DNA from: Bdellovibrionales bacterium
GTDB taxonomy: Bacteria > Bdellovibrionota > UBA2361 > JAGRAS01
Length of the DNA: 8,959 nucleotides
Direction: 5' to 3'
Assembly: GCA_020434465.1 (NCBI GenBank)
Contig: JAGRAS010000047.1
Location: 1-8,959 of the forward strand
This document shows, piece by piece, positions 3 through 8,712 of this stretch. The notes under the pieces were generated by a model. It worked only from the letters and a program-made list of their open reading frames with translations. It made no database searches and had not been told where the DNA came from. The first letter of the stretch is position 1. Every line of letters starts with the position of its first letter. Position numbers and translations under genes: made by a program.

Positions 3-2354
3 CGCTCCGGAATTAAATTTGATGAAATCGCTATTGCTAGTGGAGGTAAAAGAGAAAATGTAATCTCGGAATGGTTTACTTGCCCAGCAATAGATGAACA
101 CGGGGAAAAACAGTATCAAGAATTAGAGAAAAGATTGAAAAAAATAGAACGTCCAGACATTAATAGACTTGCACCAAGCTTATTTTTAAGCGGTAGCTCT
201 GGAGATATTGTATATGCTAGTCGCTTTCCAGATAAGGACGCTTTTAATTTAGCACAAATTCTTCCTGACTGTATGGTGTATTCTGCGGAAATAAACAACT
301 CAGGTTCAAGCTATATAGTTGGCTCAAGAAGTGGCCTTGCAAAAGTAACAATAAACTCACAAGGTGAATTCTTTCCTAGAGAAACCCTTGAAGGAGCATA
401 TTTATCTAATGTAGTTCCAGAAATTGTAAATTTAAGATCAACAGCACGAATAAAAGTAATAGATGATTTTATTAGTGGAGTTGTACAAACAATAAAATTC
501 AATGGTAGACTAATTTTTAGAAATCCTATAAGCACAGATCAAGCTTTAGATGATATTGAACTAAATCTAAGAACCGATGATGGGAAAGACACTTCTAGCC
601 GGCCAGAAGAATTATCCACAAAAGCACTTTTTGAGCTTTTTTGTAAAATTAAAAAGAGTCAAAGTAGAAGTAAACATGGCTATCTTATACCTGAAATTAC
701 TTCTTTTCCTTCAAGGTATGGTGAGAATTTTCAGCGATTTTTTGTGCCAAGAATACTTGCACAAGAATTTATGTTGATAATGTTATATCCTAAAGATATT
801 CAACGTGAAGCACGCAGACCATATTTAGTTGAAAGAGAACAAGTAGAAATCTCAATGAGAAGCAAAGGGATAAGACTTCTCTATTCTCGCCCTGAGACAA
901 GCGATTGGATTGTTAGCGAAATCTGGAAAGATAGAGTTATTGGAATTGATTTAACAAACAATCGCCCATTTCTGCCGCCAACAAATTTCGTTTACGCAGG
1001 CCAAAGAGTAAGATCAAATCAAGGCGTAGAAATTGTTTCAACCTCCAGCCAGAGGATTGATAGGCCAAATTTTTTAAAACTTAGAAGCTTTGAACGAACT
1101 TCAAATGGAGTAGGAAATATTGGGGATAAGTTTGACTTGATTGAACGTCCTAGACAGACAATAGATATTGTTCCTTGGTTTGAGCATAATGGAAAAACTT
1201 ACGTTCTTGGAAAAGATTATCCAAGGCCACTTATGATTTTAAATCAAAACCCGCTTGATGAAAGTAAGTCTGCTGGATATACAGTTGAGCAAATTTCAGC
1301 AATGCTTGATGTTGAAGATAATAAAGATTTAAGTAGTGAAGAAATTACAGCTATTGCTTTAAAAATTCTAAAAGAAAGAGCCGGTATTCAAGATTCTGAC
1401 ATCGAAGAATACGGTAAAGATGGAATGATTCTTACAGCACCAAGTATTATAAGCGAAAGAGCTTACACCTACTATCTAAAAATTAAACCTACAAAATCTC
1501 TTAGAGAAATGACTGGTGGATATACTGGAGAATTATCTACTACAGGAAACTTAAGACCAGTAGAAGTCCAGCAGGTTTTTCTAGCCTCACAAGTTGGAGG
1601 AATAACAAGTAATCGATTAGAGCAATTAACTTATGAGATTCTCTTTGAACAAAAAAAACATATTCGATCTTGGCTTGGGTCAGAGTTAAGTCTAAAAGTT
1701 CAAAATGCTAATCATCTTGAAGAAAAAACTGTGCTTGAAGCTTTCAAAGTACCAGCAGGTCATACATTTAAAGAACTAAAAGATGCCGCAAATAGATTTT
1801 ATGAACTTTTCAGTGCTGATTTTGAAGAGAAAAATGCTTCAGGTGAGACTATTGGTCGAGCATCGCTAGAATATGCGAGACCAAAAACTGTTTCTGGATA
1901 TAGTGCCAACGTGATTGCTTTCCTTCCGATTATCCGAACTAACACAGATGCAAGAGACGATAAATTTTTAGTAGGTCTTGAACAAAGAGACCTTTCAGCA
2001 GTGCAAATATTCAATCCTGAAACTTCTTGGATTGTCGCAGCTCCAAGTTTCAGAATCGCAAGTTCAACAACTAAAATGGAACAGGCTAAGAAGTTTGTTT
2101 TAGATAAACTACCTGAGCACTTCAACACTAAAGGTTTATCACTTATTCCTGCTGGGATAAAATTCTCTCCATCTAATGGAACATGCATAGACGAGATCTA
2201 CCCTTTCTTTATGGAAGTAGATGCTGCATCAGCTAAAGACTCTAGATTTATCTGGGTTGACTTAAAAGAGTTATTTAAAAACAGAGGGTTCATTTTAGAT
2301 AGTGCTCTACGAACCCTAGTCAACAGAGCAGTTCACGCTCTTGGAATACTATAG
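3..2354 (+). CDS. Large protein with two degenerate Nudix-like regions, 5'-truncated by window edge
   Basis: The reading frame is open from base 3 without a stop, so the TTG at 135 is not the real start; 783 codons are visible and the N terminus lies outside the window. I do not recognise the whole protein. Numbering from base 3, residues about 382-496 resemble a Nudix fold: a beta-rich start (TIDIVPWF), a KILKERAGI stretch at 454-462 that matches the second half of a Nudix box, then APSIISERAYTYYLKIKP, much like the PSPG-x-S-[DE]E segment of ADP-ribose pyrophosphatases. Residues about 631-775 repeat this architecture (VIAFLPII, AKKFVLDKLPEHF at 695-707, IPAGIKFSPSNG, then a RFIWVDLKEL end). 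Of the box glutamates only E458 remains in the first copy and none clearly in the second, so hydrolase activity is doubtful. The first 380 residues are soluble-looking, with no membrane segment and no family I can name. The stop overlaps the end of prs-pncA by 6 bp, tail to tail. The coding call is very secure; the Nudix reading is an inference of moderate to low certainty. Confidence 0.85.
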   Translation, partial: RSGIKFDEIAIASGGKRENVISEWFTCPAIDEHGEKQYQELEKRLKKIERPDINRLAPSLFLSGSSGDIVYASRFPDKDAFNLAQILPDCMVYSAEINNSGSSYIVGSRSGLAKVTINSQGEFFPRETLEGAYLSNVVPEIVNLRSTARIKVIDDFISGVVQTIKFNGRLIFRNPISTDQALDDIELNLRTDDGKDTSSRPEELSTKALFELFCKIKKSQSRSKHGYLIPEITSFPSRYGENFQRFFVPRILAQEFMLIMLYPKDIQREARRPYLVEREQVEISMRSKGIRLLYSRPETSDWIVSEIWKDRVIGIDLTNNRPFLPPTNFVYAGQRVRSNQGVEIVSTSSQRIDRPNFLKLRSFERTSNGVGNIGDKFDLIERPRQTIDIVPWFEHNGKTYVLGKDYPRPLMILNQNPLDESKSAGYTVEQISAMLDVEDNKDLSSEEITAIALKILKERAGIQDSDIEEYGKDGMILTAPSIISERAYTYYLKIKPTKSLREMTGGYTGELSTTGNLRPVEVQQVFLASQVGGITSNRLEQLTYEILFEQKKHIRSWLGSELSLKVQNANHLEEKTVLEAFKVPAGHTFKELKDAANRFYELFSADFEEKNASGETIGRASLEYARPKTVSGYSANVIAFLPIIRTNTDARDDKFLVGLEQRDLSAVQIFNPETSWIVAAPSFRIASSTTKMEQAKKFVLDKLPEHFNTKGLSLIPAGIKFSPSNGTCIDEIYPFFMEVDAASAKDSRFIWVDLKELFKNRGFILDSALRTLVNRAVHALGIL

Positions 2355-4070
2355 AAATACTATCCCTCTTAATCTTTCATTAGCTCTGTTTACTCCTCTT
2401 TCAGGAAAGCGTTCTTTTGCTTCAATAACCGCAATATCTCTTTTTCTAAGCTCTTTAAAAGTTTCAAGATCATCTCCTGGCTCAAGATTCACAGCACGAG
2501 TTGCATCTAAAACTACAGAAACTTCAGATCCTAACTCTCTACCATCAAATGCTGTGTAAGCTACGCAGTAATCAAGAGCCAGCCCTGCTACATCAATTTT
2601 CACTTGAGAAAGATCTAAACCTCGTTTTTTTGCTTCTTGCTCTAAATATTGTCTTAACTCTGTTTCTTGTTCGCGTCCATTATCCCAAAATGCACTATAG
2701 CTATCAATTTCTGGATTAGTACCTTTATAAATTACTTTATCAATTCTATCTGTATCAAGTTCTGGATGAAATTCAGCGCCAATAGACCCCTGAACACAAT
2801 GATCTGGCCACATCACTTGCTTTCCTCCTTTGTGATCAACTTGAGCAAACAGTTCTTGACCAGGATGATTTGATGCAAAACTTACATGATTCCTTGGATG
2901 CCAATCTTTGCTTGCAATAATTAGATCATAATCACCATCTTTCATCAGTCTATTAACAACTTCTACTGTTGCATCTCCATCTGCTACTGCTAAGGAACCA
3001 CCTGGGCAAAAGTCATTTTGAATATCAACTAGTAATAATACTTTCATTTTTTCCTCCATTCTTGATAAACCTTTTGAATTTGTACTTAGTCCTCCGGGAA
3101 GTAGTTCAAGTTTTCTAGGAATCGCGAACCTATCAATTAAAAGTTCTCTATTTAGTGCTTGAGTAATCAGATCTGATGCTGAAACAACTTTTACGAAATC
3201 ATTATTAATTTTTTGAGACCCTGGCCAGGTATCAGTGACTATTAATTGTTTAAAGAGTCCACTATTCTTTAATTTTTCTACAGCATCGGCAGTAAAATCA
3301 GCATGAGTTGCCGCAAGAGTTACACTTTTAGCACCAGCATCAAGATATTTGCGAGCAGCACCAAGAGCCGTGCCACCACTTCTAATCATATCATCATAAA
3401 TTATTACATCTTTTCCTTTTACATCTCCTTTTATTTCGCCAACTATTTTTGTTTCAGTGCTTGAAATCCTAACTTTATTGATTAATGCATGAGGAGATTC
3501 TAATAAATTTGCAAGAGAAATTACTGCTTCATGTCTCCCAGTATCTGCCGATGCAATTACAGTATTGCTGCCAACATGAGTACTAATTGCTGTTGCGATA
3601 AGTTTTTCAGCATGTATCTGTATTGGAGTTATTTGATCTCGATTGAAAAAACTTTCAATAACTTCAGCATGAAGATCAATAAGTATAACTTTATTTAGCT
3701 CAGTTGTTTTTGGAAGATCGCTCAGCATTTGCGCGCGATTTTTTGCGATTGCTACTTCCCCTCGCCTTTTAGAACGTTCCTGAGTTGAATATCGATAAAA
3801 TGGCACAACTATGGTCAAAGTTTTTACTTCAGTTGCCAGCTCTCGCGAAAAATCTAGAACAGAAAAGAAGTGTTCGTTGTCAGTACTGCCAATAAGAACA
3901 ACATCCTTACCACGATAGTCAGCCTCAGTATCTAATTCACGATGTATTTCACCATTTGGAAATATTTCCTCAGTAAGGCTTCCAGCTATATAATTTGGAT
4001 CTTTGCATATTTGATCTCTCATATACTCATAGCCAGGAACTGCAAAAATCATTATTTCTGAACTATTCAT
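2349..4070 (-). CDS. prs-pncA: Fused ribose-phosphate pyrophosphokinase and nicotinamidase (Prs-PncA)
   Basis: Residues 1 to about 315 are PRPP synthetase, which makes PRPP from ribose 5-phosphate and ATP. Visible motifs are VVPFYRYSTQERSKRRGE (88-105, ATP-binding region), DLHAEVIESFF (132-142, metal/catalytic), KVRISSTE (199-206, flexible loop) and the PRPP loop DDMIRSGGT (226-234). Residues 342-573 are a full-length nicotinamidase (nicotinamide to nicotinate plus ammonia) with catalytic D349, K449 and C502 (in LALDYCVAYTAFDG) and metal ligands D389, H391 and H424 (KDWHPRNH, WPDHCVQG). A polar linker of about 25-30 residues (316-341) joins them. Both halves keep every key residue I checked. 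Their products, PRPP and nicotinate, are the two substrates of nicotinate phosphoribosyltransferase, so the fusion fits NAD salvage in the cytosol. ATG at 4070 has GGGAGG 7 nt upstream and its own promoter. An internal SD plus ATG at the linker end may also yield free PncA. Its 3' end overlaps the convergent gene by 6 bp. Confidence 0.95.
   Translation of the reverse strand: MNSSEIMIFAVPGYEYMRDQICKDPNYIAGSLTEEIFPNGEIHRELDTEADYRGKDVVLIGSTDNEHFFSVLDFSRELATEVKTLTIVVPFYRYSTQERSKRRGEVAIAKNRAQMLSDLPKTTELNKVILIDLHAEVIESFFNRDQITPIQIHAEKLIATAISTHVGSNTVIASADTGRHEAVISLANLLESPHALINKVRISSTETKIVGEIKGDVKGKDVIIYDDMIRSGGTALGAARKYLDAGAKSVTLAATHADFTADAVEKLKNSGLFKQLIVTDTWPGSQKINNDFVKVVSASDLITQALNRELLIDRFAIPRKLELLPGGLSTNSKGLSRMEEKMKVLLLVDIQNDFCPGGSLAVADGDATVEVVNRLMKDGDYDLIIASKDWHPRNHVSFASNHPGQELFAQVDHKGGKQVMWPDHCVQGSIGAEFHPELDTDRIDKVIYKGTNPEIDSYSAFWDNGREQETELRQYLEQEAKKRGLDLSQVKIDVAGLALDYCVAYTAFDGRELGSEVSVVLDATRAVNLEPGDDLETFKELRKRDIAVIEAKERFPERGVNRANERLRGIVFL
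3045..3057 (-). promoter_or_regulatory. Internal ribosome binding site and ATG for free PncA
   Basis: On the minus strand GGAGG (3057-3053) is followed by five A's and an in-frame ATG (3047-3045) coding Met342 of the fusion, exactly where the nicotinamidase begins (MKVLLLVDIQNDF). SD and spacing are near ideal and match those of the gene's own start. The 232-aa product would be the usual length of a stand-alone PncA. It may be a working second start, or a relic of two formerly separate genes. The GAG-GAA codons could also create GGAGG by chance. Confidence 0.5.
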
Positions 4071-4077
4071 TTATATT

Positions 4078-4083
4078 CCTCCC
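4078..4083 (-). promoter_or_regulatory. Strong Shine-Dalgarno of prs-pncA
   Basis: GGGAGG on the minus strand lies 7 nt before the ATG at 4070. It is one of the few clear SD sites in the window and supports this start over any downstream ATG. Confidence 0.8.
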
Positions 4084-4297: not shown

Positions 4298-4705
4298 TTA
4301 TTCCGGAACATCAATATAATATTCATCCCAGCCTATTTTTTCTAGGACATGGTTAAGCACTCGAAAGTCATCATCAAAAAAAAAAAAAAAAATCTCATCT
4401 GGAAAAGGATCCTCTGCCACAGCAAAGTATCGTACCGCACCAATAATTAATCCCTGCTCCTTAGTAGAAAAGCGATCATAGTTATCTAATAATTCAATAC
4501 AAACTTTATATATGCTTGTTGCAAGATTTAAATCCATTGTAGGATTATTTGAGATTGAAGCTCTTAATTGATTCATACTATTTTCAAGTTGAGATCTTAA
4601 AACTGGAATATTGTCACTAGAAACCACCTCACAACAATTTCTAAAAACACTAGCAACTGAGGTCGGAAATTTTGGCAATGGATGTTTTTTACGTTTCCAA
4701 ATCAT
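4298..4705 (-). CDS. Small YkvA/DUF1232-like protein with a homopolymer-encoded Phe run
   Basis: This is a 135-aa protein without signal peptide. Residues 93-125 (RYFAVAEDPFPDEI, then a Phe run, then DDDFRVLNHVLEKIG) resemble the YkvA/DUF1232 core, in which a conserved P-x-P-D segment is followed by an acidic DD and a hydrophobic helix. The function of that family is not established, and the match is by eye only. The N-terminal part (about 30-90) looks helical. Five consecutive Phe codons (106-110) come from a 17-nt A/T run, so a one-base slip would destroy the conserved DDD segment and the C terminus. The gene starts 19 bp after the potassium channel stop on the same strand and probably shares its transcript. 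No clear SD precedes the ATG. Coding is likely because reading frame, codon use and operon position all agree; the family name is tentative. Confidence 0.7.
   Translation of the reverse strand: MIWKRKKHPLPKFPTSVASVFRNCCEVVSSDNIPVLRSQLENSMNQLRASISNNPTMDLNLATSIYKVCIELLDNYDRFSTKEQGLIIGAVRYFAVAEDPFPDEIFFFFFDDDFRVLNHVLEKIGWDEYYIDVPE
4376..4392. repeat. 17-nt poly-A (poly-T on the coding strand) tract inside a gene
   Basis: There are seventeen A's in a row on the plus strand, lying inside the YkvA-like gene and read as Ile-Phe(5). It is the longest homopolymer I see in the window. The frame is intact at exactly 17. Such tracts are prone to replication slippage, transcriptional slippage and sequencing length error. 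Confidence 0.95.
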
Positions 4706-4724
4706 AATGTTTCAAAGTTATAAA

Positions 4725-5798
4725 CTAATCTGTATCAAGCACTAGTTTTTCTAATTTATCAAAATCTTTTTTATACCCAAAACAAATCAAAGTAAAACCT
4801 TTCTCTAATATTGTGTCTGCACTTGGATTAAACTTCATTTGTCCTTCTAAATCTATAATTGCAGCAACAATAATTGAGGCTGTGTTACGTATGCCCGAAT
4901 CCCTCAATGATACTCCTACTATAGGTGACTCATCTGGGATGACAATTTCTTCAAGTAATAGATCTCCGGTATTTCCATTCCCTGCTAAATCCAAAAATGC
5001 AGCAACATGAGGCCTTAAAAGACCTCCAGCAACTCTTTGTCCGCCAATTCTATAAGGTGCAATAACTTTATTGGCTCCTGCTCTGATTAACCTTTTCTCA
5101 CCTACATCGTCTTCTGCCCTACTAATAATAAAAATATTTTTATTAAGTTCACGCGAAGTTAATATGATATATAAATTATCAGCATCTTTTGGCAGTAAAG
5201 AAACTAGTCTTGTTGCTCTTTCAACACCTGCAGAAATTAGACTTTCATCCAGTGTTGCATCACCTCTAACAACTAAAAATCCAGAGCTCTCTACTTCTAT
5301 AGCGCGATCTTCATCCCTTTCAATGATAACAATTTTTGGAGGTTCTTTACAGGCACCACAATATTCCTCAACTGCAATTTTAGTTAGTCTACCATATCCG
5401 CAGAAAATAGTATGACTACTCATCCAGTCTATTGCTTCATTCATTTTATCCTTTTTAAAAACCCATTTAATTTGCTTTTCAATTATTCTTCTTGCTAATA
5501 AAGATAATACACCAGTTGCTACTCCAACACCTATAAAAATTAAAACAATTGAAAAGGCTCTACCATAATTGGAAAGAGGTTTTACTTCTTGAAAGCCAAC
5601 AGTTGTAACTGTTATAGCTGTCATATATAAAGAGTCAAACCAACCCCAACCTTCAATAGTTGAATATCCTAATGTTCCAAATACCAATAAAGAAATAACT
5701 GCAAATGTGAGTAATAAAACTTCTCTTGCTTCGTAGCTAGTAGGTCCTAAATGAAAAAGCCATGCTGGGAGGTAGGATTTTCTTTTTTTTCTGTGCAT
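4725..5798 (-). CDS. Two-TM RCK-gated potassium channel
   Basis: This is a 357-aa inner-membrane channel of the MthK-like type. TM1 is about residues 27-46, the pore helix about 53-65, the selectivity filter TVGFQ at 66-70 (in TVTTVGFQEVKPLS, a common bacterial variant of TVGYGD), and TM2 about 81-103. A cytosolic RCK N-lobe (TrkA-N) spans about 128-250 with CGYGRLT (133-139), acidic E160 at the end of the second strand, RGDATLDESLISAGVERA (178-195) and GANKVIAPYRIGG (241-253). A TrkA-C lobe follows at about 278-350 (EEIVIPDESPIVGVSLRDSGI). The third glycine of the G-x-G-x-x-G nucleotide loop is Thr139, so NAD(H) binding may be altered. It should pass K+ under control of a nucleotide or ion ligand. 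It is first in a minus-strand pair with the YkvA-like gene, and is divergent from pfk across 139 bp. The start is the ATG at 5798, without a visible SD; MHRKKRKS is a normal basic N terminus for the topology. Confidence 0.92.
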   Translation of the reverse strand: MHRKKRKSYLPAWLFHLGPTSYEAREVLLLTFAVISLLVFGTLGYSTIEGWGWFDSLYMTAITVTTVGFQEVKPLSNYGRAFSIVLIFIGVGVATGVLSLLARRIIEKQIKWVFKKDKMNEAIDWMSSHTIFCGYGRLTKIAVEEYCGACKEPPKIVIIERDEDRAIEVESSGFLVVRGDATLDESLISAGVERATRLVSLLPKDADNLYIILTSRELNKNIFIISRAEDDVGEKRLIRAGANKVIAPYRIGGQRVAGGLLRPHVAAFLDLAGNGNTGDLLLEEIVIPDESPIVGVSLRDSGIRNTASIIVAAIIDLEGQMKFNPSADTILEKGFTLICFGYKKDFDKLEKLVLDTD

Positions 5799-5937: not shown

Positions 5938-7077
5938 ATGAAAGACAAAGGAGCTCTAGGAATAATTGTAAGCGGTGGGCCAGCGCCAGGTATCAATAAC
6001 GTAATCTTTTCAGCTTTAATCGAAGCAAGTAATTTGGGATGGAAAGTTTTTGGAGCTCAGGGGGGTTTTGAAGCCATTGATGGTAAAAGTGCTGAGGCTT
6101 GGGAAATTTTAAACCCTGATGAGTTGACTGATATTCGCTTTACTGGTGGTTCAATTCTTGGAACTTCTCGATTCAATCCTTTTGAGTCAGAAAAAAGTAC
6201 AAATGTTTTTCTTAATAGCTTAGCTCAAAAATATATTGATAAGCTTATTATTATTGGTGGTGAAGGTTCTGCCTATTTATCTTACAAATTAACGACTATT
6301 AAATCTGATATAAAAGTTATTCATGTTCCAAAGACTATTGATAATGATCTTAAGTTACCTCACTCTCATCCAAGTTTTGGATTTGAAACTGCCAGGTTTG
6401 TTGGCACTGAAATTCTAGAAACTATGCTAATTGATGCCAAAACTTCAAAGCGTTGGTTTATTGTAACAAGTATGGGTAGAAACGCTGGCTTTTTAGCCCT
6501 TGGCCTTGGTATTGCCTCAGGTGCTCATTTAACTCTAATTCCTGAAGAATTCAATACAGAAGAAAAACCAACTCTCGACGAAATTGCAGATATAGCAATG
6601 AATTGTATCAGTAAAAGAACTGCAATTGGAAAAAATTATGGCTTGATTATTATTGCTGAAGGAGTTCTGCAAAAAATAGACCCAAATTCAAATGAAAGAA
6701 TTAAAAACTGCCCACGAGATAATATAGGCAGACTTTCATATTCAAAAATTGATATTGGTGAGTTACTTCTTCCAATTATTGAAGAGAAAGTTACGGCAAT
6801 GAATTTAAAGTGTAAATTATATGCTAAAAACCTTGGCTATGAGTTAAGGTGTCATTCGCCAGTTTCTTTTGATATGGAGTATACAAAGTTTCTTGGATGT
6901 GGAGCTGTTATGCACCTTAATTCAGGAAAAACTGGAGTTATGGTTGTTAGAGATTTTGATCAATTAAGTGAAGTTCCTCTTAATGATCTTGTAGGCTCTA
7001 ATGGCAAGATGCTTAGCAGAACAGTGAATATCGGCTCAGACCTTTATAAAATTGCTGCTAAATATATGTTCAGATAA
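5938..7077 (+). CDS. pfkA: 6-phosphofructokinase of the PPi-PFK-like lineage, probably ATP-dependent
   Basis: This cytosolic enzyme phosphorylates fructose 6-phosphate to fructose 1,6-bisphosphate in glycolysis. In its 379 residues I see GGPAPGINN (13-21, phosphoryl-donor loop, PPi-type spelling), GGEGS (107-111), the catalytic PKTIDNDL (131-138; D135 equals E. coli base D127), SMGRNAGFLALG (178-189), AEG (240-242) and LGYELRCHSPVSFD (299-312, sugar-phosphate site). At the two diagnostic positions it has Gly110 (E. coli G104, typical of ATP users) and Lys132 (E. coli G124, Lys in PPi enzymes). The Gly/Lys combination is known from ATP-using members of the PPi-like clade such as trypanosomal PFK, so ATP is the likelier donor. 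Glu109 replaces the Mg-binding Asp (E. coli D103), a conservative but unusual change. The ATG at 5938 sits the expected distance before the first motif but lacks an SD. It is the first gene of an apparent operon with murJ, 15 bp downstream. Confidence 0.93.
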   Translation: MKDKGALGIIVSGGPAPGINNVIFSALIEASNLGWKVFGAQGGFEAIDGKSAEAWEILNPDELTDIRFTGGSILGTSRFNPFESEKSTNVFLNSLAQKYIDKLIIIGGEGSAYLSYKLTTIKSDIKVIHVPKTIDNDLKLPHSHPSFGFETARFVGTEILETMLIDAKTSKRWFIVTSMGRNAGFLALGLGIASGAHLTLIPEEFNTEEKPTLDEIADIAMNCISKRTAIGKNYGLIIIAEGVLQKIDPNSNERIKNCPRDNIGRLSYSKIDIGELLLPIIEEKVTAMNLKCKLYAKNLGYELRCHSPVSFDMEYTKFLGCGAVMHLNSGKTGVMVVRDFDQLSEVPLNDLVGSNGKMLSRTVNIGSDLYKIAAKYMFR

Positions 7078-7092
7078 TATTTTAAACACATT

Positions 7093-8712
7093 GTGAATGC
7101 GCCAAAACAAATATCTCTTCTTAAAGGAACAAGCATCGTTTCAAGCCTTACGATTGTTAGTAGAATTTTTGGATTTATTAGAGATTTGCTTGTTGCGAAG
7201 TTATTCGGAGCTGGTTTTTTTGCAGACGCTTTTTTTGTTGCTTTTAGAATTCCAAATTTACTTAGAAGTTTAGCTGCTGAGGGAGCTTTAACTTCTGCCT
7301 TTGTTCCTATTTTCTCTTCAGAACTTGAAAAAGGTAAAGACTTTGCTCAGCAAGCTTTAAAAGCTACTGGATCTTTAATTGTTAAATTTGTTAGTGCTTT
7401 GTGCGTACTGTCAATTATTTTTAGCCCTGAAATTGTGAGTATGATTGCGCCTGGCTTTACAAAAAATCAAGCTCAATTTGAGCTAACAGTACTACTAACA
7501 AGAATAATGCTCCCGTATCTTTTGTTTATAAGTCTTATTTCTATGATCAACGGCGCATTAAACTCTGTAGGAATTTTTGGTGCAGCCTCTTTAAGCCAGA
7601 TAATTGTGAATCTAACATTAATTATTGGTGCTTTATTAGCAGGCTTTTACCAAGATTATTCTGCTGCAATAATTTTAGCGATCTCAGTGCCTCTAGGTGG
7701 ATTTGCATCAATTATCTTACAAATCCCTTTTTTAAAAAAAGCTTCTTTATATATACTCCCAACAGGCAAAGCAGTAACTAAAGTTACCAAAGAAATTTTA
7801 AAACTAATGCTACCTGCTGTATTTGGAGCCGCTGTCTATCAAGTTGGAATTTTTCTAAACACAGCTCTTGCGTCTGTCTTATCGCCAGGTAGCGTTTCCT
7901 GGCTTTTTTACTCAGATAGAATTGTTCAATTTCCAATTGGCGTTTTTACTGTTGCCCTAGCTTCGGTTTTACTACCGTCACTTTCAAGATCAGAAGCTAA
8001 GAAAAGTAATCAAGAGTTTATTACTTCAATTCAAGATTCTATTAGATTTACAAGTTTTATTATTATCCCAACTGCTTTTGGACTTTATTATTTAGCGGAA
8101 CCAGTTGCTAGAATTGTTTTTGAACGTGGTGAATTTTCAGCTTTGGATTCAAAAATGACAGCTATCTCGATTAAAGCATTTTGCTTTGGTCTCTGGTCTG
8201 TTAGTTGTCACTCAATGTTAGTTCGTGCATTCCTAGCAAAAAAAGACACTCGCACCCCAATGTTTATTGGACTTGCCTCACTCGTAATTGGATTTATTGT
8301 TTCTATTTTTTTTATGGGGCAAGCTTATAGGAACCAAGGTTGGATTGGTAGTTTGGTTGATCTGATTCAATCCTCGGCTCCTAATTTTGTACAAAGTTTT
8401 GGTCATGTAGGCTTGGCTTTGGGATCAATTTTTTATTCTTTTGTTTCTTTGATTTTGTCCGTTTATATTCTATTACAAAGATTGGAGGGTTTTAGCTTAA
8501 AAAGCTTAATAATTTCCTCATTAAAATCAACAATTGCAAGTGTTGGTATGTGCTTAGCAATCAGTAAGTTTTTTTCTGTTTCCTCGCTCTCGTTTATTGG
8601 ACTAGTTTTAGCTATTCTTTTTGGTATCTTAATTTACATAATTATCTCTTTAATTCTACAAAGTAGCGAGCTCAAGGAAACTTTTCGCCGTTTTTCACGA
8701 TTACTTAAATAG
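7093..8712 (+). CDS. murJ: Lipid II flippase MurJ (MviN)
   Basis: This polytopic inner-membrane protein flips the peptidoglycan precursor lipid II to the periplasmic face. It has 539 residues against about 511 in E. coli. Conserved N-terminal signatures are SRIFGFIRD (23-31, with R24 and R30 matching essential E. coli R18 and R24), ADAFFVAFRIPNLLR (44-58; D45 equals D39, R58 equals R52) and EGALTSAFVP (63-72). SDRIVQFP (274-281) carries R276, matching E. coli R270, and FERGEFS is at 343-349. Hydrophobic segments run along the whole length, consistent with the family's 14 TMs. E. coli R53 is replaced by Ser59. About 25 extra residues at roughly 409-435, between late TMs, account for the added length. 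The start is GTG at 7093; the ATG at 7097 is out of frame and no other in-frame start lies after the pfk stop except a rare ATT. No SD is visible, so coupling to pfk translation (15-bp gap) is likely. Confidence 0.97.
   Translation: MNAPKQISLLKGTSIVSSLTIVSRIFGFIRDLLVAKLFGAGFFADAFFVAFRIPNLLRSLAAEGALTSAFVPIFSSELEKGKDFAQQALKATGSLIVKFVSALCVLSIIFSPEIVSMIAPGFTKNQAQFELTVLLTRIMLPYLLFISLISMINGALNSVGIFGAASLSQIIVNLTLIIGALLAGFYQDYSAAIILAISVPLGGFASIILQIPFLKKASLYILPTGKAVTKVTKEILKLMLPAVFGAAVYQVGIFLNTALASVLSPGSVSWLFYSDRIVQFPIGVFTVALASVLLPSLSRSEAKKSNQEFITSIQDSIRFTSFIIIPTAFGLYYLAEPVARIVFERGEFSALDSKMTAISIKAFCFGLWSVSCHSMLVRAFLAKKDTRTPMFIGLASLVIGFIVSIFFMGQAYRNQGWIGSLVDLIQSSAPNFVQSFGHVGLALGSIFYSFVSLILSVYILLQRLEGFSLKSLIISSLKSTIASVGMCLAISKFFSVSSLSFIGLVLAILFGILIYIIISLILQSSELKETFRRFSRLLK

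Follow-up and report, generated by a model that had tools for sequence, protein, structure and literature searches.

PRPP feeds the synthesis of purines, pyrimidines, histidine, tryptophan and NAD, and is usually treated as one shared pool. In the established salvage pathway, nicotinamidase (PncA) releases nicotinate and PRPP synthetase (Prs, or PRPS) releases PRPP, and nicotinate phosphoribosyltransferase (PncB) joins both products. The closest description of the synthetase part is a bioRxiv preprint of June 2026 (PMC13252144) that divides PRPS into classes. In the parts of the preprint used here, class IV is marked by a Thr replacing R96 within an 'STMER' motif and by a FLAG-region glutamate that is kept, and 74% of class IV species are stated to carry class I as well. 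The same parts report a recombinant eukaryotic class IV PRPS that is active on ribose 5-phosphate (R5P) and a hexamer for the class IV enzyme, and they term the bacterial class II and class IV enzymes augmenters of class I, stating no pathway. The main text, as available to us, contains no word beginning with 'nicotin' or 'fusion', and its passages on NAD are assay or figure-legend text. From phages, the prs-pncB pair of Rheinheimera virus Barba19A has been read as pyridine-nucleotide salvage in the passages seen of PMC6715854. Among open-licence papers, judged by title and the start of the abstract, a report of a Prs-PncA fusion was not found.

Architecture of the fusion gene

In the window (the whole stretch of 8,959 bases analysed here), one gene encodes both a PRPP synthetase and a nicotinamidase, each as a complete half that retains its catalytic residues (Table 1). 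The listing of open reading frames gives an uninterrupted frame for the fusion, with a linker that is free of stop codons. Pfam models matched above their cut-offs along the whole protein, with Pribosyltran_N at residues 6-117 (44.9 bits, cut-off 25), Pribosyl_synth at 205-308 (46.5 bits, cut-off 27) and Isochorismatase at 344-531 (66 bits, cut-off 27). The NCBIfam models agree, ribose-phosphate diphosphokinase TIGR01251 matching at 7-308 (176.2 bits, cut-off 113; positions 2-297 of the 309 of the model) and nicotinamidase NF008623 at 343-550 (225.6 bits, cut-off 174; positions 4-204 of 213). The Prs half keeps D132, H134, D176, K199, R201, D226, D227 and T234, among which K199 and R201 are the catalytic Lys and Arg of the flexible loop, and D226 and D227 the Asp-Asp of the R5P loop. 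The PncA half keeps D349, K449 and C502, the catalytic Asp-Lys-Cys triad, as well as D389, H391 and H395; these last three are assumed to bind metal together with H424, which is invariant in the alignment of the three fusions described below.

The AlphaFold2 model of the fusion, based on an alignment of 38 sequences, reaches a mean pLDDT of 89.3, and values below 50 are confined to linker residues 317-338 and to stretches of residues 560-573. Foldseek matched the Prs half to solved PRPP synthetases (best match 8ypy_A, 4.6e-22) and the PncA half to the Acinetobacter baumannii nicotinamidase 2wta (8.0e-21), while the nearest solved PncA by sequence was 2wt9 (3.4e-46).

Table 1. Features of the fusion gene and its surroundings, in positions of the window.
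Feature	Positions	Strand	Details and basis
Whole fusion open reading frame	2349..4070	-	573 aa plus stop, ATG start
PRPP-synthetase half, residues 1-314, class IV-like	3129..4070	-	Pfam, NCBIfam, alignment, tree, AlphaFold2 model
Linker, residues 315-341	3048..3128	-	Alignment, AlphaFold2 model
Nicotinamidase (PncA) half, residues 342-573, opening at an internal ATG	2352..3047	-	Pfam, NCBIfam, residues, structure matches
Regulatory-flexible-loop motif S95-T-Q-E-R99, T96 in place of the class I Arg	3774..3788	-	Alignment; meaning of the motif from parts of PMC13252144
Ribose-5-phosphate loop D226-D-M-I-R-S-G-G-T234, R230 where class I rows have Asp	3369..3395	-	Alignment
GGAGG, Shine-Dalgarno-like, 5 nt before the internal ATG (ATG at 3047)	3053..3057	-	Lead only
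GGAGG, 7 nt before the fusion's own ATG	4078..4082	-	Start-site scan

Searches of about 5.8 billion proteins, in each of which some 8,000 candidates were scored, returned two further proteins with Prs followed by PncA: P0002 (578 aa; 60% identity by BLASTP, 59% in the alignment), which is labelled by NCBI as 'Bdellovibrionota bacterium', and P0003 (582 aa; 47% identity). In both, the two halves are called above the NCBIfam cut-offs. The uninterrupted frame and these two fused relatives led us to reject a chance open reading frame. Among the 120 matches listed of the 476 found with a profile of the three fusions, a further Prs-PncA fusion was absent; the remaining ones listed were PncA proteins, many with different partners, or single Prs proteins (P0004 and P0070). 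In a quick tree with 71 rows, the PncA halves of the three fusions form one group (SH-aLRT 96). P0004, a stand-alone Prs of 320 aa from a contig of 2,659 bases, branches within the clade of the fusions in the Prs tree, which means that either the fusion was later split in the lineage of P0004 or its history is not simple. An earlier note on this DNA had described two complete halves with catalytic residues, and the family models and the named residues bear this out. It had also asked for other proteins with Prs followed by an isochorismatase-like domain, and whether the two are always separate genes in relatives; P0002 and P0003 are such proteins and are fused, while Prs stands alone in the close relative P0004.

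The start of the PncA half allows for a second product. One transcript might give two proteins, free PncA being made also, or even mainly, from Met342; this would add to the explanation that we prefer below and not exclude it, and we rate it as a somewhat unlikely addition, to be followed as a lead only. The GGAGG five nt upstream of ATG342 speaks for it, all the more as, among the assigned starts of six genes, such a site is found at the fusion's own start only and the other five are without one; on the other hand, a site of 5 nt or longer precedes 7 of the 77 in-frame start codons that are internal to genes of the window, two of these seven, codons 419 and 420 of the fusion gene, having a longer site than codon 342. 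A retained ribosome-binding site would call for conservation of Met342 and of Glu339, which lies three codons before it, and neither residue varies among the three fusions. The linker residues P318, L321 and L328 do not vary either, however, and Glu339 is therefore not singular. The invariance also rests on three proteins, for P0002 and P0003 on their protein sequences, and Met342 has a second reason to be there, as it opens the PncA fold, beginning the first strand of that half in the AlphaFold2 model.

Class of the PRPP-synthetase half

Judged by its sequence, the Prs half differs strongly from the housekeeping enzyme. We call it class IV-like and not a proven member of class IV, because its motif is STQER or ATQER in the fusions, with Gln at position 97 where the other class IV-like rows have Met, and because the comparison in which it groups with STMER-type proteins leaves the preprint's class IV sequences and classes V-XI outside. 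In the alignment, position 96 is Thr in 140/140 class IV-like rows and Arg in 4/4 class I rows, and position 230 is Arg in all 140 of the former and Asp in all four of the latter. The FLAG Glu is found in 138 of the 140 class IV-like rows, as well as in the four class I rows, and is E41 in all three fusions. These 140 rows comprise the three fusions, 12 cellular loci, seven phage loci and 118 database hits, and since the hits were picked by a profile already bearing these features, the counts describe the group and test nothing. Class II is characterised by TTMER and the absence of the FLAG-region Glu, and the fusion has STQER and E41; class I has Arg at the position of R96, and the fusion has Thr96.

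A profile of the Prs half and six relatives, run against 194 genomes of one phylum, scored 384-471 bits on four class IV-like loci, and no other listed match exceeded 179 bits. The maximum-likelihood tree, built from 82 of the 144 sequences in the alignment and with a bootstrap that had not fully settled, parted class I from the rest (100/100) and united the three fusions with P0004 (100/99). The fusions, P0003 included, sit on a long branch.

Some class IV-like Prs proteins are longer, with 447-559 aa and an extra copy of the N-terminal lobe in front (P0133, P0137 and L082:7953-9632). The extra copy appears as two Pribosyltran_N stretches by Pfam in P0133 and P0137, and was seen by eye in L082.

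Gene neighbourhoods and a second PRPP synthetase in relatives

Within the window, an NAD gene other than the fusion was not recognised by Pfam or NCBIfam. A 739-aa open reading frame (135-2354, plus strand), for which NCBIfam gave no match at 1e-3 and Pfam none even at E 10, converges on the fusion gene and overlaps its end by 6 bases. The fusion is preceded on its own strand (4298-5798, minus strand) by a family-less 135-aa open reading frame, 227 bases away, and an ion channel with TrkA domains. They are followed by a phosphofructokinase (5938-7077, plus strand), whose best NCBIfam model is the diphosphate-dependent NF041103 at 414.8 bits, below the cut-off of 550. A riboswitch or other known RNA was rejected, as the two Rfam matches in the window (E up to 1) both lie far below the gathering score. 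The leader of the fusion is not unusually folded (z -0.26), and promoter-like sites number 3 vs 3.5 expected from shuffles.

We then turned to stand-alone relatives, at all 12 cellular class IV-like loci that the searches returned (L002, L032-L034 and L076-L083), calling NAD genes by tblastn at 1e-8 within the stretch read around each prs. The counts leave out P0002, P0003, P0004 and the myxobacterial and other database hits, and the 12 loci are not 12 independent cases, since they come from 10 genomes of one phylum, with eight of them in a single order. One or more NAD genes were found at 11 of the 12, and none at 18 class I prs control loci searched in the same way, three of which are from the same genomes and 15 of which are the highest-scoring class I matches of the Prs-half profile search. 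Nicotinate phosphoribosyltransferase or a distant relative occurs in nine of the 12 class IV-like loci, NadE in nine, PncA in eight and NadD in five, and the order PncB-Prs-NadE-PncA is seen in four (L033, L076, L077 and L079). At L002, the reading frames of PncB and Prs overlap by four bases, the PncB stop lying across the Prs start. L032 reads NrtR-PncB-Prs-NadE, with Pfam NrtR_WHD, NAPRTase and NAD_synthase above cut-off; NrtR regulons have reportedly been worked on by Rodionov and colleagues. L083 has none of the NAD genes searched for, and a Nudix gene adjoins its prs.

Only some of these NAD labels were checked against family models. The PncA of L033 is above the NCBIfam cut-off, and those of L034 and L079 pass Pfam but not NCBIfam. 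Pfam matches neither the PncA of L082 nor the NAPRT-like gene of L034, and the latter also stays below the NCBIfam cut-offs. Furthermore, several query proteins were taken from L032 and L034, so self-matches there are not independent evidence.

At five of the eight PncA loci (L076, L077, L079, L080 and L082), NadE and PncA share a single open frame, which makes for a PncA fusion of a second kind within this gene set, beside class IV-like prs. At L078, a gene divergent from the class IV-like prs (6338-7639) encodes a 433-aa protein that appears by eye to have two tandem NadD domains.

Samples of three other phyla yielded no class IV-like prs, which weighs against the role proposed below. The gene was found in 0/398 genomes of the phylum of G003, where the best five candidates per genome were scored and absence says little, in 0/100 genomes of the phylum of G002 and in 0/199 of that of G250. 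The genomes of L001, L003, L005 and L006 gave no class IV-like match above about 172 bits. A larger draw from the phylum of G001, again with the best five candidates scored per genome, gave 3/386 genomes and no new locus.

All 10 genomes that carry a class IV-like prs also carry a class I prs, and the two are readily told apart by their Pribosyltran_N scores (about 172-184 bits for the class I copies vs 47-67 for the class IV-like copies). This bears on the possibility that the organism has no PRPP synthetase besides the fused Prs, which would then be a housekeeping enzyme that happens to carry PncA. According to the parts of PMC13252144 used here, 74% of the species with class IV have a class I gene, which leaves about a quarter with none detected, but a separate class I prs was retained in each of the 10 related genomes examined, and the Prs half is without the class I residues Arg96 and Asp230. 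We thus regard this possibility as unlikely. The suspicion in the earlier note that the fused Prs is a specialised second copy and not the housekeeping one has gained ground from the class IV-type residues, from the NAD context of relatives (11/12 vs 0/18 loci) and from the accompanying class I gene (10/10). A specialised second copy for NAD salvage is well supported by the relatives; the fused Prs would be such a copy, with a class I prs and a pncB expected elsewhere in the genome of the fusion organism.

In viruses, we examined 28 loci, with seven class IV-like prs, 20 class I-like prs and one (L043) that was not classed. At the phage loci L035 and L039, a class IV-like prs lies between NadM-Nudix and NadV. 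An NAD link was present at two of the seven class IV-like and five of the 20 class I-like loci, and as NadV occurs in those five, the link in phages is not special to class IV. At L035 and L039, a small protein between prs and nadV looks macro-domain-like by eye. A viral origin of the fusion was rejected, as a relative was encoded in 0 of 50 pattern-matching stretches of viral_contigs and no single place in any of the 279 matching phage records reached 80% coverage of the protein. Among plasmids, the Prs half matched 208 records, every best place being below 60% identity.

A proposed role in NAD salvage

Taken together, we think it probable that the fusion is a bifunctional feeder enzyme of NAD salvage, a specialised class IV-like Prs and a PncA that supply PncB and were fused from an NAD gene set. 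The N-terminal half would be a class IV-like PRPP synthetase, a paralogue apart from housekeeping class I, and the C-terminal half a nicotinamidase. The PRPP and nicotinate that they would provide are the two organic substrates of PncB. The fusion would have joined two members of the set formed by PncB, class IV-like Prs, NadE and PncA, which are adjacent in relatives, and the joining may place both substrates in a fixed ratio under a single control. We expect both activities to reside in the fusion protein, which would oligomerise through its Prs half; if it is hexameric like the class IV enzyme in the available parts of the preprint (PMC13252144), several PncA domains would be arranged around a Prs core on flexible linkers.

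The earlier interpretation is partly supported by these results. Its NAD-salvage logic, in which the products of the two halves are the two substrates of PncB, holds up, whereas channelling, which it had offered beside stoichiometric supply, is not supported in the strict sense. Neither half consumes the product of the other, PncB is outside the polypeptide, and the linker is of low confidence in the model, as if flexible. Since the halves do not feed each other, the arrangement would amount to co-supply and not to channelling within one protein. Channelling would need PncB bound to the fusion, while co-supply in a fixed ratio is possible.

A different substrate for the Prs half appears very improbable. 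It could use, for example, ADP-ribose, as the phage enzyme Adps does, and make ADP-ribose pyrophosphate (ADPR-PP) for the rebuilding of NAD. Arg230 of the fusion takes the place of an Asp in the ribose-5-phosphate loop, and the function of Adps in the NARP1 pathway parallels that of PRPS (passages of PMC12774641). However, the partner here makes nicotinate, whereas Namat, in the same passages, joins ADPR-PP to nicotinamide. Stand-alone relatives, moreover, adjoin PncB or NadV, and the class IV enzyme in the available parts of PMC13252144 uses R5P; Adps itself enters this comparison through its published description. The product of the Prs half is inferred to be PRPP and not a different pyrophosphate. 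Finally, even though the window consists of just one contig of 8,959 bases, an assembly or sequencing error that joined two adjacent genes is practically excluded, because P0002 and P0003 (59% and 47% identity), on different contigs, share the architecture and are fused in the same order.

The feeder-enzyme reading also suggests a wider one, which we put forward tentatively and with less conviction than that for the fusion itself. Class IV PRPS as a group may be a dedicated PRPP supply for NAD salvage, which would explain its coexistence with class I, the fusion being the physical link that reveals it. The fusion and the neighbourhood of its stand-alone relatives thereby give the extra PRPS class a testable role, a private PRPP supply for NAD recycling, and the value of the fusion would lie in pointing to such a role of class IV-like PRPP synthetases.

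Among known systems, the Prs half resembles class IV PRPS, as described in the parts of PMC13252144 used here, in the Thr replacing R96, the FLAG Glu and the catalytic residues, and the coexistence of class IV with class I recurs in the relatives of the fusion. It differs in having STQER or ATQER in place of STMER, and in being fused to PncA. Prs is likewise grouped with nicotinate phosphoribosyltransferase in phage Barba19A, and phage KVP40 performs NAD salvage with nadV/natV; both use separate genes, with no PncA fusion in the passages seen of PMC6715854.

The PncA half shares its triad with bacterial nicotinamidase PncA (NF008623; A. baumannii 2wt9), and is here the C-terminal domain of a larger protein. 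Many of the proteins P0007-P0120, several of them named planctomycete, have a Ser/Thr protein kinase domain joined to PncA, where the partner here is Prs. PncA is also joined to another enzyme in a PncA-Nudix fusion (P0005), and to pathway enzymes in PncB-PncA fusions (P0016 and P0065) and fusions of NadE with PncA (P0049 and P0119). The fusion described here is one more in this broad set, its Prs partner being met in no paper found, and it extends a pattern in which PncA is joined to varied enzymes of one pathway: NadE, PncB and now Prs.
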